Both the position numbers and the translations under genes were made by a program. A stretch of 12,893 nucleotides of DNA from NCBI GenBank assembly GCA_913031335.1, contig CAJWGI010000011.1, positions 1 through 12,893 of the forward strand, read 5' to 3'. Under the pieces are notes generated by a model. It did not search any database, was not told the DNA's origin, and saw only the letters and a list, made by a program, of their open reading frames with translations. Every line of letters starts with the position of its first letter. Within the stretch, counting starts at the first letter, position 1. Origin of the DNA: an uncultured Anaerolineales bacterium. Lineage in GTDB: Bacteria > Chloroflexota > Anaerolineae > Anaerolineales > UBA11657. Shown piece by piece: positions 1 to 5,345 of the stretch.

Positions 1-478
1 AATTGCGAGAGTCATCGTCCCATCCCAGCCGGATTTTTGCGCTGACCGGAATCTCCACAGCCGTGACCAGTCGTTCCATCAACCGCGTAATCAGGCGCGG
101 GTCGCGCATCATTCCAGCGCCAGCTCCCCGTTGAGCGATCTTCTTCACAAAACAGCCCATGTTGATATCGATAATGTCGGGGCCGAGATCCTGCAGCCAC
201 TGCGCGGTATCCACAATGCGTTCCACATCATGCCCGTAAAGCTGAAACACAACCGGGCGCTCGTGCTTGCGGAAGCGCAGCTTCTGCTTGGCGCGCAGGC
301 TGCCGCCGCGCCGCCCTTGCAGCTCGTCCACGTTGATGAATTCGGTGTAGCTCAAAGACGAGCCCAGCGTTCGGCAGATAGACCGAAAAGGCAAATCGGA
401 GAATCCCGCCATCGGAGCGAGAATCAAATCTCCGAACACCGGAACAGCACCGACGTGGAAGACAGGCTGCGCAGCCAT
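1..478 (-). CDS. dus: tRNA-dihydrouridine synthase (Dus family), N-terminal part, cut by window edge
   Basis: Flavin-dependent, NADPH-using reduction of uridine to dihydrouridine in tRNA loops is the family role. The visible 159 residues begin at the ATG at 478-476 and run off the left edge, so roughly the last half of a normal protein of 320-350 residues is missing. Seen: the TIM-barrel FMN-binding start LAPMAGFSDLPFR at 20-32, the QLYGHD strand at 79-84, DINMGC at 104-109 with the expected catalytic cysteine C109, GAGAGMMRDP at 118-127, and SAKIRLGWD at 146-154 with the conserved lysine K148. The usual proline after the catalytic cysteine is phenylalanine (F110). The gene diverges from the fusion gene at 598. 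A TATAAT lies 7 bases upstream of the ATG, so the transcript is probably leaderless. I am confident of the family but not of the Dus subtype. Confidence 0.93.
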   Translation of the reverse strand, partial: MAAQPVFHVGAVPVFGDLILAPMAGFSDLPFRSICRTLGSSLSYTEFINVDELQGRRGGSLRAKQKLRFRKHERPVVFQLYGHDVERIVDTAQWLQDLGPDIIDINMGCFVKKIAQRGAGAGMMRDPRLITRLMERLVTAVEIPVSAKIRLGWDDDSRN

Positions 479-485
479 GGGCACG

Positions 486-491
486 ATTATA
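486..491 (-). promoter_or_regulatory. -10 element (TATAAT) of dus, suggesting a leaderless mRNA
   Basis: On the minus strand a perfect TATAAT occupies 491 to 486, and the ATG of dus begins at 478. Transcription starting the usual 6-8 bases downstream of the -10 would begin at or within a base of the A of the ATG, leaving no room for a ribosome-binding site. No convincing -35 element is seen at 16-18 bases. It lies in the 119-base gap (479-597) between two divergent genes, which otherwise holds only the weaker plus-strand signals listed separately. Confidence 0.55.
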
Positions 492-538
492 ACATTTGGG
501 GGGTCTGTACCCGTTGAAACGAAAACCCGGCCGCACCC

Positions 539-597: not shown

Positions 598-2283
598 ATG
601 AGCGCCGCCAAACCACACGTTCTCATCGCATGTCGCTTTGATGATGCTGCCGTCACGCAGCTGCGCGAGCACGCGGACGTTGATCTGCGCCCAAATCTCG
701 CCGCGGAGGAGCTTGAGAATTGCATCGGCGAATACGATGCGCTCATCGTAGATAGCGAGACATATGTGCCCGACCGCACCATTGAATATGGCTACCGCCT
801 GCAGGTCATCGGGGTAGCCGGGCCAGCGCTCGACAACATCAGCGTCAGCGCCGCCCGCGCTGTGGGCGTCGAGGTCATCAACGTCCCCGACCCGCAGACT
901 TTGGCTGCCGCCGAGCAGACTATGGGCGCGCTGCTAACGCAGGCGCATAGCCACGGGCCGGTGGGGCTGGCCGGGCACACGCTGGGTATCATTGGGTTCG
1001 GCGGGGTCGGGCACCAGGTGGCGCTGCGCGCCCGTGCCTTCGATATGCACGTGCTTGTGCACCAGCCGAGATTGACTCCAGAACTTGCGCTGACCGTTGG
1101 CGTGGAGCTGCGCGACCTGCCCGACCTGCTGACCGAAGCCGATTTCATCAGTGTTCATCTACCAGAATCTCCAGAGACGAAAGGGCTACTCGGCGCAGAT
1201 GAACTGGCGCTCTGCCGGGAAAGCGCGGTGCTCATCAACGTCGGTAACCACCATGCACTAGATTTGGACGCTGTGCAGAACGCGCTGGCCGACGAGCAGC
1301 TGGCCGGGGCTGTAATCCGTGTGGGATCGGATAGCGCTTTGCCGGTGACGCACGACCGCCTGCAGACAGTGCCACACGCAGGCGCCAGCCGCTCCGAGGT
1401 GCGCCGCGACGTCGCTCTTAATCTGGTCGAGCGTTTGCATGAACTGATACGCAGCCACCGGCGCGGAAACCCGCTGGCGCTGCGCGTGGTGCCCGTGGAA
1501 CAGATTCTCCCTCACGAACATTACGACCCAGAACGCGTCGCCGACCTGGCCGATAGGCTGGCGCACGACACGGACCTTGTCAACCCGCCGGTGGTGACCG
1601 AGTGGGACGGAAAGTATGTAGTGCTGGACGGTGCCACGCGCACCAGCGCTTTCACGCGCCTTGGTTACCCGCATATTGTGGTGCAACTAGTACCACACGA
1701 ATCCGAAGACCTAGTTCTTCACACCTGGTACCATGCTGTATGCGGCCCAAAACCAGATGCGCTGCTGGAACGCCTGCGCGAACTTTCGGGCGTGGTGCTG
1801 GAAGAAGCCCCGCACGACCGGCTGCAACAGGAATTAGATAGCGGCACAGCGCTTTGCAGCCTCATCACTCGCGATGGGAATAGCTTCCTCGCACGCACCG
1901 CTACAGAAACTGCAGACACCTTGGCCCCGCTGAAGGAAATCGTGGGCGCATACACCGAGCTCGGCAGCGTCACACGCACCCTCAACACCGATCTGGAAAT
2001 GCTGCGAACCGAGGCTCCGGACCTGTGCGCGTTGATAATCTTTCCCCAGTTCGCGCTCCGGGACGTACTCGATGCGGCCGTCACTAAGACCGTGCTCCCG
2101 GCCGGCATCACTCGCTTCCTGATACCTGGGCGCGTGCTCCATCTTAATGTCAGTCTCGACCGTCTGCGCTCGGATGAATCGCTGGCGCGGAAAAACACGT
2201 GGCTGAACAAAATGCTGGCGGAGAAGTTGACCCATCGCAACGTGCGTTACTATCAGGAACCGGTCATTCTGCTGGACGAATAA
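598..2283 (+). CDS. fusion: degenerate PGDH-like NAD-binding domain + SerK/SbnI (ParB-fold) serine kinase-like domain
   Basis: 561 residues in one uninterrupted frame. Residues 1-285 resemble D-2-hydroxyacid dehydrogenases of the 3-phosphoglycerate dehydrogenase type: substrate-domain start, GPALDNISVSAARAVGV at 75-91, and a Rossmann loop GFGGVG at 133-138. Of the catalytic Arg/Glu/His, only the histidine (H260) is kept; Arg aligns with N217 and Glu with about S246. Residues 295-561 resemble the ParB/SerK/SbnI fold: LPHE (E307), PPVV at 330-333, VVLDGATR at 341-348 (D344), and an ending with TRFLIPGRVL at 505-514. E307 and D344 are spaced like the phosphotransfer Glu and the Asp reported for SbnI and SerK, which make O-phosphoserine from free serine. 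The start ATG follows an in-frame TGA at 589-591; GGAGG lies 14 bases upstream, which is rather far. It leads a tight group with folK and folC. The product may be a serine kinase or a regulator; the fold calls are firmer than the activity. Confidence 0.8.
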   Translation: MSAAKPHVLIACRFDDAAVTQLREHADVDLRPNLAAEELENCIGEYDALIVDSETYVPDRTIEYGYRLQVIGVAGPALDNISVSAARAVGVEVINVPDPQTLAAAEQTMGALLTQAHSHGPVGLAGHTLGIIGFGGVGHQVALRARAFDMHVLVHQPRLTPELALTVGVELRDLPDLLTEADFISVHLPESPETKGLLGADELALCRESAVLINVGNHHALDLDAVQNALADEQLAGAVIRVGSDSALPVTHDRLQTVPHAGASRSEVRRDVALNLVERLHELIRSHRRGNPLALRVVPVEQILPHEHYDPERVADLADRLAHDTDLVNPPVVTEWDGKYVVLDGATRTSAFTRLGYPHIVVQLVPHESEDLVLHTWYHAVCGPKPDALLERLRELSGVVLEEAPHDRLQQELDSGTALCSLITRDGNSFLARTATETADTLAPLKEIVGAYTELGSVTRTLNTDLEMLRTEAPDLCALIIFPQFALRDVLDAAVTKTVLPAGITRFLIPGRVLHLNVSLDRLRSDESLARKNTWLNKMLAEKLTHRNVRYYQEPVILLDE

Positions 2284-2289
2284 CGCCCT

Positions 2290-2787
2290 GTGCCCACCGT
2301 GTTGCTGGCACTTGGATCGAACCTGGGACAGCGAATCGATCATCTGCGCGCTGCCCGGCAGGCGCTGGCCACGCGAGTGACCATCGGCGCGACCTCGCCA
2401 ATCTACGAGACCGAACCGCTTTACGTTACCGAACAGCCCGCCTTTCTCAATATGGTGCTGCGCGGCGATGTCGGCCTTTCGCCAGAAGAGCTGCTCGCGT
2501 TCATCAAAAAAACCGAACGTGACTTAGGTCGAGCAGCCTCGGTTCGGTTTGGGCCCCGCGTGATTGACATCGACATCATCGATTACGATGGACGCCAGCT
2601 GCAGCGCCCCGACCTCGTCATCCCACACCCGAGGGTGCACGAGCGCGCATTTGTGCTGCGGCCGCTGGCCGACGTTGCGCCACGCTGGAGCCACCCTCGC
2701 AGCGGGAAAACCGCGCTGCAACTGCTGCGCACGCTTCCGGACAAGCAGGGAATCCGCCCGTACGCTGAAGCCCCCGTCGCGCCATAG
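2290..2787 (+). CDS. folK: 6-hydroxymethyl-7,8-dihydropterin pyrophosphokinase (HPPK)
   Basis: Transfers pyrophosphate from ATP to 6-hydroxymethyl-dihydropterin in cytoplasmic folate synthesis. The 165 residues are of usual family length. Seen: LALGSNLGQR at 6-15, SPIYETEPL at 36-44, the FLN pterin-side motif at 52-54, ERDLGR at 76-81, and GPRVIDIDI at 88-96 with the Mg-binding aspartates D93 and D95, then IPHPRVHERAFVLRPL at 111-126. The start is GTG at 2290, because the conserved first strand (VLLALGSN) follows at once and no suitable ATG precedes it. The gap from the upstream stop is 6 bases, and folC follows after another 6, so the three genes are very probably co-transcribed and translationally linked. 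No folP, folB or folE is in the window. Confidence 0.95.
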   Translation: MPTVLLALGSNLGQRIDHLRAARQALATRVTIGATSPIYETEPLYVTEQPAFLNMVLRGDVGLSPEELLAFIKKTERDLGRAASVRFGPRVIDIDIIDYDGRQLQRPDLVIPHPRVHERAFVLRPLADVAPRWSHPRSGKTALQLLRTLPDKQGIRPYAEAPVAP

Positions 2788-2793
2788 GCGTCA

Positions 2794-4131
2794 ATGGACT
2801 ATCAATCCGCGCTTGATTACCTATACAGTTTTGTCGATTTCGAGGCAAAACCTGCCGATGTATACGCGCCCGAACGCTTCAACCTCGAGCGTGTGCGCGG
2901 GCTGCTGGAGCGTCTCGGCAATCCCCACGGGCGTTACGCCAGCGTGCACATTGCTGGCACAAAGGGCAAGGGTTCGCTGGCTGCTATGGTGGAATCGGTG
3001 CTTCGTGCGGCCGGGCACAGCACCGGACTGTTCACTTCCCCCCACCTGCAGGATTTCCGCGAGCGCATTCGGGTTGACAGGAAAATGATTGCACATGATT
3101 CTCTTGCCGCACTCATCGCCGAGCTGCGCCCGCACATTCCAGCCACTGCGGACATCACTTTCTACGAAATCAGCACGGCGCTCGCTCTGGAATGGTTCGC
3201 CCGCCAAGGAGTCGAGATTGCCGTTCTCGAGGTCGGGCTCGGGGGCCGCCTTGACGCCACCAATGTGGTCGCGCCGGCGGTGTGTGCGATCATGCCGATC
3301 AGCTTTGACCATGTGGAATTGCTTGGGGATACTATCGAATCCATCGCAGTCGAAAAGGCCGGCATCATTAAGTGCGGGGTGCCAGTTGTCGTGGCGCCTC
3401 AGCCAGTCGCAGCCCAATCGGTGCTGCGTGAGCGAACGGCCGCTATTAGAGCGCCGCTGATAGATGTGGATGCAGCATGGGCATGGAATTGTGAAGAGTC
3501 CAGCGCCGCCGGGCAGCAGTTCGCACTTTGGCCGACTGCCCGACCACAGGATAAATGTAACTATCAGCTGCCACTCCTAGGTACCCATCAAGTGGAAAAT
3601 GCCGCCGTCGCAGTAGCGTTAGTGCAGCAGCTGCGCGAACAGGGATGGAGTATTCCTCAACGCGCAATTGCCCGGGGTCTCAAAACCGTGCAATGGCCGG
3701 CGCGCTGCGAGGTCTTGCCGGGTGAGCCACCCGTGATGCTCGATTGCGCGCACAACCGCGCCTCGGCCAAGCGGCTGGCAGAGACGCTGCAAGACTTTTT
3801 TCCCGGCCTGCCACGGGTACTGGTCTTCGGCGCAATGCGCGACAAAGACGTGGCCGGAATGTTCGCGGAACTTCTCCCCGGTTGCAGCACAGCCATCATG
3901 ACCTCCGCCGGGACGCCGCGCGCCATGCGCCCGCGCGATCTGGTTCAAACAGCGGCGGAGTACGATTTCCCGACTTCCCCGGCTGCCGACCTGTCGAGCG
4001 CACTCGCACAGGCAAAACAGGCGGCCACTCCTGCGGCCGTGATTGTGGTAACCGGCAGCGTCGCCCTGGCGGGCGCAGTGCGCGCCGCTATGCTCGAAGA
4101 CGCGGCCCTTTCAGCAGGCGCGCCGCTATAA
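2794..4131 (+). CDS. folC: bifunctional dihydrofolate synthase / folylpolyglutamate synthase
   Basis: Mur-ligase-family enzyme that ATP-dependently adds glutamate to dihydropteroate and to folates. The 445 residues match the usual 420-450. Seen: P-loop AGTKGKGS at 54-61, TSPHL at 81-85, EVGLGGRLDATNVV at 146-159, FDHVELLG at 171-178, EKAGIIK at 187-193 with the lysine that is carbamylated in the family (K188), the WPAR linker at 301-304, and DCAHN at 317-321. The last motif is usually DGAHNP; here it has Cys and is followed by Arg, a mild deviation within the ligand-binding loop. The ATG at 2794 gives the expected N-terminus and sits 6 bases after the folK stop. Its stop codon lies inside a TATAAT at 4127-4132 that may serve the next gene. 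Whether both activities are present cannot be told from sequence alone. Confidence 0.95.
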   Translation: MDYQSALDYLYSFVDFEAKPADVYAPERFNLERVRGLLERLGNPHGRYASVHIAGTKGKGSLAAMVESVLRAAGHSTGLFTSPHLQDFRERIRVDRKMIAHDSLAALIAELRPHIPATADITFYEISTALALEWFARQGVEIAVLEVGLGGRLDATNVVAPAVCAIMPISFDHVELLGDTIESIAVEKAGIIKCGVPVVVAPQPVAAQSVLRERTAAIRAPLIDVDAAWAWNCEESSAAGQQFALWPTARPQDKCNYQLPLLGTHQVENAAVAVALVQQLREQGWSIPQRAIARGLKTVQWPARCEVLPGEPPVMLDCAHNRASAKRLAETLQDFFPGLPRVLVFGAMRDKDVAGMFAELLPGCSTAIMTSAGTPRAMRPRDLVQTAAEYDFPTSPAADLSSALAQAKQAATPAAVIVVTGSVALAGAVRAAMLEDAALSAGAPL

Positions 4132-4634: not shown

Positions 4635-5345
4635 TCATTCGTCGCGACGGTTTTCAAGGGTGCGCTGCAACAACTTCTCCCGCGTATTGCTCCCTTTTTT
4701 CTTCCGCTTTGTTCGCATTAAGCGCTCCCGCTGGGGCTGACCTTCCATAGCGGCGCGCAGCGCAAGCTCCATCGCCGTAGCGGGCGGCGCTTCGTCCTCG
4801 TCCTCATCCACGACCTGCTGCTCCAGCGCCCGCATGCTTAAGTCGATCTGTCGTTTCTTGCGATTGACCCCGATCACCTGCGCTTCCACTTCCTCGCCCA
4901 ACGTAACCACCTCATCCGGGTGCGCCACCCGGCCGGTCGTGATCTCGCGCACATGCACCAGTCCGGGGCGTTCCGCGCCAACATCAACAAAGGCGCCAAA
5001 CTTCTCCAGCCGCACCACTTTGCCCGAGCGAATCTGGCCGGGCTTCAGCTCGTGCCACTCCACCGCAAGCGGCTCCTGCAACGTGAGCGTCACACGATTG
5101 GCTTTCTTCTCCACCTGCTTTACCCACACCGTGACTGCCTGTCCAATCTGGAACGCGTCATTCCCCTGTCCACCCTTCGTCTCGCCAAGTTCGGAGATGT
5201 GCACCAATCCATCCCGGCCAATACCGACGTCAACGAGAATGCCGAACATCTCCAGGCTGCTGACGGTACCCTGCAGCCGCATTTTTGGGCACAAGTCTGC
5301 GACATTATCCGGTTGGCTGGTTGCAGCGGATATTTCTTCGGTCAC
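4635..5345 (-). CDS. S1 RNA-binding protein with two S1 domains and charged tail
   Basis: 236 residues, cytoplasmic, presumably binding RNA. Two OB-fold S1 domains are visible: about 20-91 (LQGTVSSLEMFGILVDVG, then DGLVHISEL at 45-53) and about 102-172 (SGKVVRLEKFGAFVDVG at 107-123, then PGLVHVREI at 127-135). These are followed by an acidic stretch DEDEDE at 180-185 and a basic C-terminus rich in Lys and Arg (about 206-234). It is far shorter than ribosomal protein S1 (4-6 domains) and lacks a nuclease domain, so it is not RNase E/G, PNPase or full rpsA. The start is GTG at 5345-5343; an in-frame TGA lies eight codons upstream. It is transcribed alone, away from the rmd-like gene, from the strong promoter at 5453-5481 with a leader of about 100 bases. 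The exact role (translation or RNA metabolism) is unknown. Confidence 0.88.
   Translation of the reverse strand: MTEEISAATSQPDNVADLCPKMRLQGTVSSLEMFGILVDVGIGRDGLVHISELGETKGGQGNDAFQIGQAVTVWVKQVEKKANRVTLTLQEPLAVEWHELKPGQIRSGKVVRLEKFGAFVDVGAERPGLVHVREITTGRVAHPDEVVTLGEEVEAQVIGVNRKKRQIDLSMRALEQQVVDEDEDEAPPATAMELALRAAMEGQPQRERLMRTKRKKKGSNTREKLLQRTLENRRDE

Follow-up and report, generated by a model that had tools for sequence, protein, structure and literature searches.

The fusion gene and its probable kinase half

The first 12,893 nucleotides of contig CAJWGI010000011.1 (assembly GCA_913031335.1, from an uncultured Anaerolineales bacterium of the Chloroflexota; this whole stretch is referred to as the window) carry at positions 598..2283 a single uninterrupted reading frame of 561 amino acids with an ATG start and no internal stop codons. 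The frame, Pfam and NCBIfam matches, a homologue search and the loci of relatives identify it as the gene for a fusion of a pseudo-3-phosphoglycerate dehydrogenase (pseudo-PGDH) with a probable free-serine kinase; this gene and the features described within it lie on the plus strand. The N-terminal half (residues 6-285, 613..1452) has the PGDH fold of D-2-hydroxyacid dehydrogenases and has lost catalytic residues; Pfam detects PF02826 (110.1 bits) and PF00389 (53.5 bits). The C-terminal half (residues 293-561, 1474..2280) is a SerK/SbnI-type free-serine-kinase domain according to NCBIfam, a structural model and alignment. The original prediction, made from the letters alone, had joined these two halves in one frame, and the family matches bear it out. 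Judging from sequence, structural modelling and analogy, the protein is probably a SerK/SbnI-like kinase of free serine that stands behind a PGDH-derived domain without PGDH catalysis and supplies O-phosphoserine.

The predicted structure of the kinase half shows the complete two-part SerK/SbnI fold over the whole domain and not a ParB clamp, and the closest known structure is SbnI. Note that the model of the full-length protein (predicted template modelling score, pTM, 0.52) leaves the arrangement of the domains uncertain and was not used. E307 in the motif LPHE (codon 1516..1518) aligns with E30 of SerK and E20 of SbnI, and D344 in LDGATR (codon 1627..1629) with D69 of SerK and D58 of SbnI. 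Both residues, as well as the ending TRFLIPGR, are where the original prediction had placed them, and its two computational grounds for refutation, a ParB-type fold lacking a serine pocket or variable E307 and D344, are contradicted by the model and by the conservation: all 121 proteins compared carry E307 and 120 carry D344, and the equivalents of both are retained in all 56 kinase domains compared, stand-alone ones included. Furthermore, the titles of PDB entries list E30A and E30Q structures of SerK, indicating that E30 matters.

In the literature consulted, descriptions of free-serine kinases concern SerK of a few archaea and SbnI of a staphylococcal siderophore pathway, and Makino 2016 (PMC5120207) states that no clear-cut homologues of SerK were found in bacteria. 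SbnI (PDB 5ujd, 6nr6; NF033589), an L-serine kinase and regulator of staphyloferrin B synthesis, is 24% identical to the kinase half of the window protein; it is ~250 amino acids long, has DGVHR and no fused dehydrogenase, whereas the window protein has DGATR and a dehydrogenase half. SerK of Thermococcus (PDB 5x0b; NF053625; PMC5120207), an ADP-dependent free serine kinase and a separate protein, is 17-18% identical; its alignment stops at model residue 238, so that a longer C-terminal tail is missing. The window protein lies below the equivalog cut-offs of TIGR01327, NF033589 and NF053625 alike, and its kinase is a separate branch, neither SbnI nor archaeal SerK itself.

SbnI as the closest known structure, which carries the NCBI name "bifunctional transcriptional regulator/O-phospho-L-serine synthase", could also speak for a regulator or scaffold that responds to serine or O-phosphoserine and whose kinase fold would bind serine and a nucleotide but not turn them over. 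However, the catalytic Glu and Asp are invariant in the 56 kinase domains, the neighbour patterns, where seen, consist of metabolic genes, and no DNA-binding, helix-turn-helix or ParB family was detected by Pfam in the window protein at E values up to 1; in ParB/Noc CTPase clamps, in contrast, the fold is followed by a helix-turn-helix. We therefore regard such a regulator or scaffold as highly improbable.

Residues lost and kept in the dehydrogenase half

The N-terminal half retains the 2-hydroxyacid dehydrogenase fold and the dinucleotide-binding glycine motif (GFGGVG, residues 133-138, 994..1011, from sequence and alignment); against the NCBIfam model for PGDH (TIGR01327), residues 8-288 reach 183.4 bits (cut-off 454). 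Of the PGDH residue set, only the His is present. According to the alignment, V73 (814..816) replaces the substrate-binding Arg (RAGAG in intact relatives) and N217 (1246..1248) the catalytic Arg (ARGG of PGDH); S246 (1333..1335) falls opposite the catalytic Glu in a loose alignment, with a gap in one alignment, and H260 (1375..1377) keeps the position of the catalytic His, being the sole His there among 24 representatives of the window's clade. This loss goes beyond what the original prediction had seen. In all 24 clade members the position of the catalytic Arg is occupied by N or S, and the residue at the Glu position varies. Among 125 fused representatives, 33 have an intact Arg/Glu/His triad; the odd triads of three others (L034, L046, L093), checked by eye, are genuinely changed.

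Bona fide SerA (TIGR01327; PDB 1wwk, 1ygy) carries DPY and the catalytic residues and continues where the window protein carries the kinase, whereas the window half has QPR (residues 156-158, 1063..1071), lacks the substrate Arg, catalytic Arg and Glu, and has a shorter stretch before the Rossmann part than its intact relatives. QPR hardly varies among the fusions: L029 and L164 carry QPH and QPD in theirs, most others QPR, and DPY is found in the separate PGDH genes of L029, L119, L161, L162 and L164 and in the SerA of the genome that holds the window. In this dehydrogenase family, loss of the Asp at the DPY position points to NADP(H) over NAD(H), and the QPR of the fused half suggests the same preference here. 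The original prediction had considered a regulator whose head binds NAD(H). This holds in part: the head is best read as a non-catalytic domain that binds a dinucleotide, but QPR points to NADP(H), and Pfam gives no DNA-binding domain.

The separate SerA just mentioned scores 520.3 bits (TIGR01327 cut-off 454), has an intact triad (SRAEL, CQEP, PHLNQ) and is adjoined by a gene that resembles SerB (75.9 bits, cut-off 144.15); the two genes stand in a row behind a frame that looks proA-like by eye (locus L165, G000:C114). At L029 and L164, genes for an intact PGDH and an aminotransferase lie upstream of the lost-triad fusion on the same strand. Because of these separate intact genes, the fused half is probably not the main PGDH of the cell.

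Family, phylogeny and shift of constraint

With residues 285-561 as the query, 598 proteins were found at E <= 1e-3 (8000 candidates scored), and among the matches listed 110 of 120 are at least 500 amino acids long; the fusion is therefore no accident of assembly. A family search of this kind had been proposed in the original prediction. Relatives are encoded at 72 loci in named genomes (fusions, kinase-only genes and pieces at contig ends), according to their records mostly of Chloroflexota (many of them Anaerolineae), with a few Desulfobacterota, two Acidimicrobiia, one gammaproteobacterium and one member of the Eisenbacteria. In the class of the window organism, related kinase domains are present in 68 of 150 sampled genomes, in three architectures. 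As far as the literature was searched, the joining of PGDH to the kinase and the loss of the dehydrogenase site in the joined protein are new, whereas the kinase kind and the PGDH kind were already known; the word "dehydrogenase" is absent from the main text of a survey of ParB folds (PMC12704722).

Three-domain proteins of ~900 amino acids make up 35 of the 121 homologues (P0035 and 34 others; loci include L010-L012, L015, L016, L018-L023). They consist of an N-terminal pyridoxal-phosphate enzyme, a degraded PGDH half and the kinase; the first domain of P0035 is closest to threo-3-hydroxyaspartate ammonia-lyase (418 bits, cut-off 452). In 10 loci a gene for a HAD-family hydrolase lies 3' of the three-domain fusion (L010:10208-10813 and nine more). 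L013 had been called three-domain by script from its frame length; its extra N-terminal stretch is unlike PALP by eye, and it was taken as a two-domain protein, with an intact triad. At the other extreme, the Rossmann part is gone in L068:2807-4006, where ~95 N-terminal residues of the dehydrogenase half remain before the kinase, and in L072 143 residues precede the kinase and the triad region is absent.

For the kinase-domain tree, 276 rows were reduced to 243 by removing identical ones, to 174 by clustering at 85% and to 161 by leaving out 13 partial or doubtful sequences; a quick search and a midpoint root were used. L027, whose likeness to the family ends after about residue 450 of its frame in that assembly and whose triad is lost (by eye), is outside the tree. 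The tree sets 39 stand-alone kinases apart from 122 sequences that form one clade (support 99): every full fusion in the tree (113), two kinases that retain part of the dehydrogenase half and seven without one. Within this fused clade the intact fusions L102, L103, L105 and L104 branch first. The window's clade has 24 members (support 98), and a clade with mostly H-x-H has 51 (support 99), including 29 three-domain proteins. With a midpoint root, the direction of change is inferred, and its sense, from a working to a lost dehydrogenase, supports it. The kinase appears to persist while the dehydrogenase decays, because L068 and L072 keep it without the Rossmann or triad region; note that sampling went through the kinase domain, so that the opposite case, a dead kinase with a live PGDH, would escape detection.

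The two halves were compared in 109 of the 121 proteins (10 fragments, P0073 and P0108 being left out), sorted by hand or length into groups of 32, 12, 30 and 35. At a kinase identity of 0.55-0.60, the identity of the N-terminal half averages 0.705 over 15 pairs of the intact group, 0.526 over 168 pairs of the window's group and 0.488 over 14 pairs of two-domain H-x-H proteins. Likewise, the mean identities of the N-terminal and kinase halves, 0.713 versus 0.605 in the intact group, are reversed in order in the window's group (0.539 versus 0.580). Nevertheless, G133, G138, Q156, P157, T160 and D182 are invariant in all 32 proteins of the window's group, R158 is found in 31 and G135 in 29. In the dehydrogenase half, constraint is relaxed at the active site and maintained at the dinucleotide site.

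Such retention might be expected of a dehydrogenase with an altered substrate and NADP(H) use, which together with the kinase would form a new two-step enzyme. Q156-P157-R158-T160 and the glycine motif are near-invariant in the degraded clades, H260 is kept in the window protein and the His in most of the H-x-H group. The substitution of the Arg by N or S in every clade representative, the unconserved Glu position and the faster evolution of the N-terminal half speak against it, and we think it unlikely.

Genomic context and the proposed function

In several relatives, the fusion gene has neighbours from serine metabolism. The gene serC adjoins it at L007, with a gap of 6 nt (TIGR01364 over cut-off; window's clade, triad lost), and at L027, at 170 nt (serC recognised by eye and by a genome search; the kinase frame is broken in that assembly); at L043, where the triad is intact, serC lies downstream (TIGR01364 over cut-off). 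In three Desulfobacterota, a fused GcvT/serine-hydroxymethyltransferase-like gene directly precedes the kinase fusion, with gaps of 2, 18 and 2 nt (L046:5329-7980, L068:182-2788 and L076:4105-6813; assigned by family scores for L046 and by similarity for the other two), and L068 and L076 have glycine-cleavage-like genes close by (GcvH and GcvP, by eye). Serine hydroxymethyltransferase is encoded downstream at L044, and an FAD/GcvT gene 50 nt upstream at L008 and L009.

Stand-alone kinase genes were surveyed at 47 loci from the class survey against 13 reference genes within a range of ~5 kb; the reference genes of L109 and L112 score above the cut-offs of TIGR01415 (TrpB-like) and TIGR01137 (cystathionine beta-synthase). 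At nine of the 47 loci trpB2 lies upstream on the same strand (L117, L118, L123, L124, L127, L131, L138, L143 and L119), in eight within ~500 nt; at L119 an aminotransferase and a PGDH gene stand between trpB2 and the kinase. Downstream of the kinase in L118, L119, L124, L127 and L143 there is an indolepyruvate-oxidoreductase-like gene (by eye), and these loci are possibly indole-salvage operons supplied with O-phosphoserine. A cystathionine-synthase-like gene is directly upstream in two loci, and at three others a weaker match to cystathionine/cysteine synthase lies no more than 4 kb away. Some members of the family thus have genes for makers and users of O-phosphoserine close to the kinase.

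Three loci (L119, L161, L162) have separate aminotransferase, PGDH and kinase genes in a row. This arrangement, the serC genes beside fusions with intact and with lost triads and the 33 intact fused representatives would fit a working two-enzyme protein that gives O-phosphoserine both from 3-phosphoglycerate, by a route that PGDH starts, and from serine, through the kinase; in a variant of this idea, both halves run from serine to 3-phosphoglycerate with a transaminase between them. Makino 2016 (PMC5120207) proposes the latter direction, by way of SerK, a transaminase and PGDH; in three species of Desulfurococcales the paper reports serK in the vicinity of genes for PGDH and an aminotransferase, and in a fourth next to PGDH. 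For the window protein, both versions taken together are very unlikely: V73, N217 and S246 replace the substrate Arg, catalytic Arg and Glu, no other clade representative has the His, the N-terminal half evolves faster than in intact members, and the genome has its own SerA. The original prediction of a single protein converging on O-phosphoserine is accordingly plausible for the intact-triad relatives and is not supported for the window protein itself.

Returning to a free-serine kinase behind a pseudo-dehydrogenase, we infer kinase activity in the direction L-serine + nucleotide phosphate donor -> O-phospho-L-serine. Serine would sit beside the nucleotide in a SerK-like pocket, and E307, by analogy with the catalytic mechanism of SerK E30, would act as the catalytic base that activates the hydroxyl for phosphate transfer. 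The fusion probably arose as a working PGDH-SerK protein, because intact-triad fusions branch first and separate PGDH and SerK genes occur side by side; the window's clade would then have lost the substrate-binding and catalytic residues of this dehydrogenase and retained its dinucleotide-binding core. As this core is kept and catalysis lost, the half would be a pseudo-dehydrogenase with a probable structural or NADP(H)-sensing role, probably serving dimerisation or oligomerisation and perhaps, speculatively, NADP(H)-linked control of the kinase. O-phosphoserine from free serine would add to the pool made from 3-phosphoglycerate via SerA and a transaminase; its users in relatives may be cysteine/cystathionine synthases and TrpB2.

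Several observations weigh against this interpretation. The kinase half scores far below the cut-offs of both known kinases (residues 294-560 against NF033589, 79.6 bits, E 2.2e-22, cut-off 350; residues 298-423 against NF053625, 37.4 bits, cut-off 380), and DGATR in place of the DGxHR of SbnI and SerK means that the pockets differ. Three of the 32 proteins of the window's group lack the second Gly of GxGxxG, QPR also occurs in intact-triad members, which makes the coenzyme reading indirect, and a backbone node among the first splits of the fused clade has a support of 13. Many fusion loci have unrelated neighbours, and 30 of the 47 stand-alone loci, some on short contigs, have none of the reference genes. 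In the window, the downstream neighbours are folate genes and no O-phosphoserine partner is among them: folK (2290..2787, plus strand, TIGR01498 over cut-off) begins 6 nt 3' of the fusion stop and is possibly cotranscribed with the fusion gene, and folC follows (2794..4131, plus strand, TIGR01499 over cut-off). Finally, SerC was not found in the window organism's own assembly (1.73 Mb, 351 contigs), nor were cysteine synthase or TrpB2 over cut-off; such absence means little because the assembly is 73% complete. It has a best cysteine-synthase family match of E 2.1e-15, one match of 172.8 bits to TrpB2 (cut-off 518.85) beside a TrpA-like frame, and two other PALP frames that resemble threonine synthase and threonine dehydratase (by eye).

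The family offers a natural series for the change from an enzyme half to a pseudo-enzyme: separate neighbouring genes, fusion with an intact triad, fusion with a lost triad, loss of the Rossmann part and fusion to a third enzyme. A bacterial route from serine via O-phosphoserine to tryptophan or cysteine becomes directly testable, because kinase domains occur in 68 of the 150 genomes, some beside makers or users of O-phosphoserine. A broader and rather doubtful proposal is that free-serine phosphorylation is a widespread source of O-phosphoserine in Chloroflexota, for TrpB2 (salvaged indole to tryptophan) and for cystathionine/cysteine synthases, and that in the fused branch the decayed PGDH has turned into an NADP(H)-sensing or docking pseudo-subunit tying the kinase to an active dehydrogenase or transaminase. 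If so, the redox state of the cell would set the supply of O-phosphoserine from serine.

A replacement of CysE by the fusion was also considered. Among the 150 genomes, CysE over cut-off is present in none of 21 with a full-length fusion, in 16 of 47 with a kinase domain in which no full-length fusion was found (one of them, G120, probably has a fusion truncated at the end of a contig) and in 49 of 82 with neither (fusion versus rest, Fisher 2e-6). The 21 fusion genomes belong to seven families; seven of eight kinase-less genomes of two of these families (f17, f36) also lack CysE, and the L027 genome has both CysE and the fusion. The counts were therefore not used as strong evidence. In six genomes assigned to the same clade by tree or residues (L006, L007, L008, L009, L027, L051), CysE is over cut-off in one, SerC in four and the cysteine-synthase family in three, the last reaching at least 329 bits in all six.

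Near the three-domain fusions, 15 loci have a GNAT-like gene upstream and 14 a gene resembling a response regulator (both by eye); the two-domain locus L042 is counted among the latter. In the window, a gene start resembling tRNA-dihydrouridine synthase (1-520, minus strand) diverges from the fusion gene upstream of it, and a frame resembling a repeated S1 RNA-binding domain protein (4635-5345, minus strand) stands among genes of the opposite strand (both by eye).
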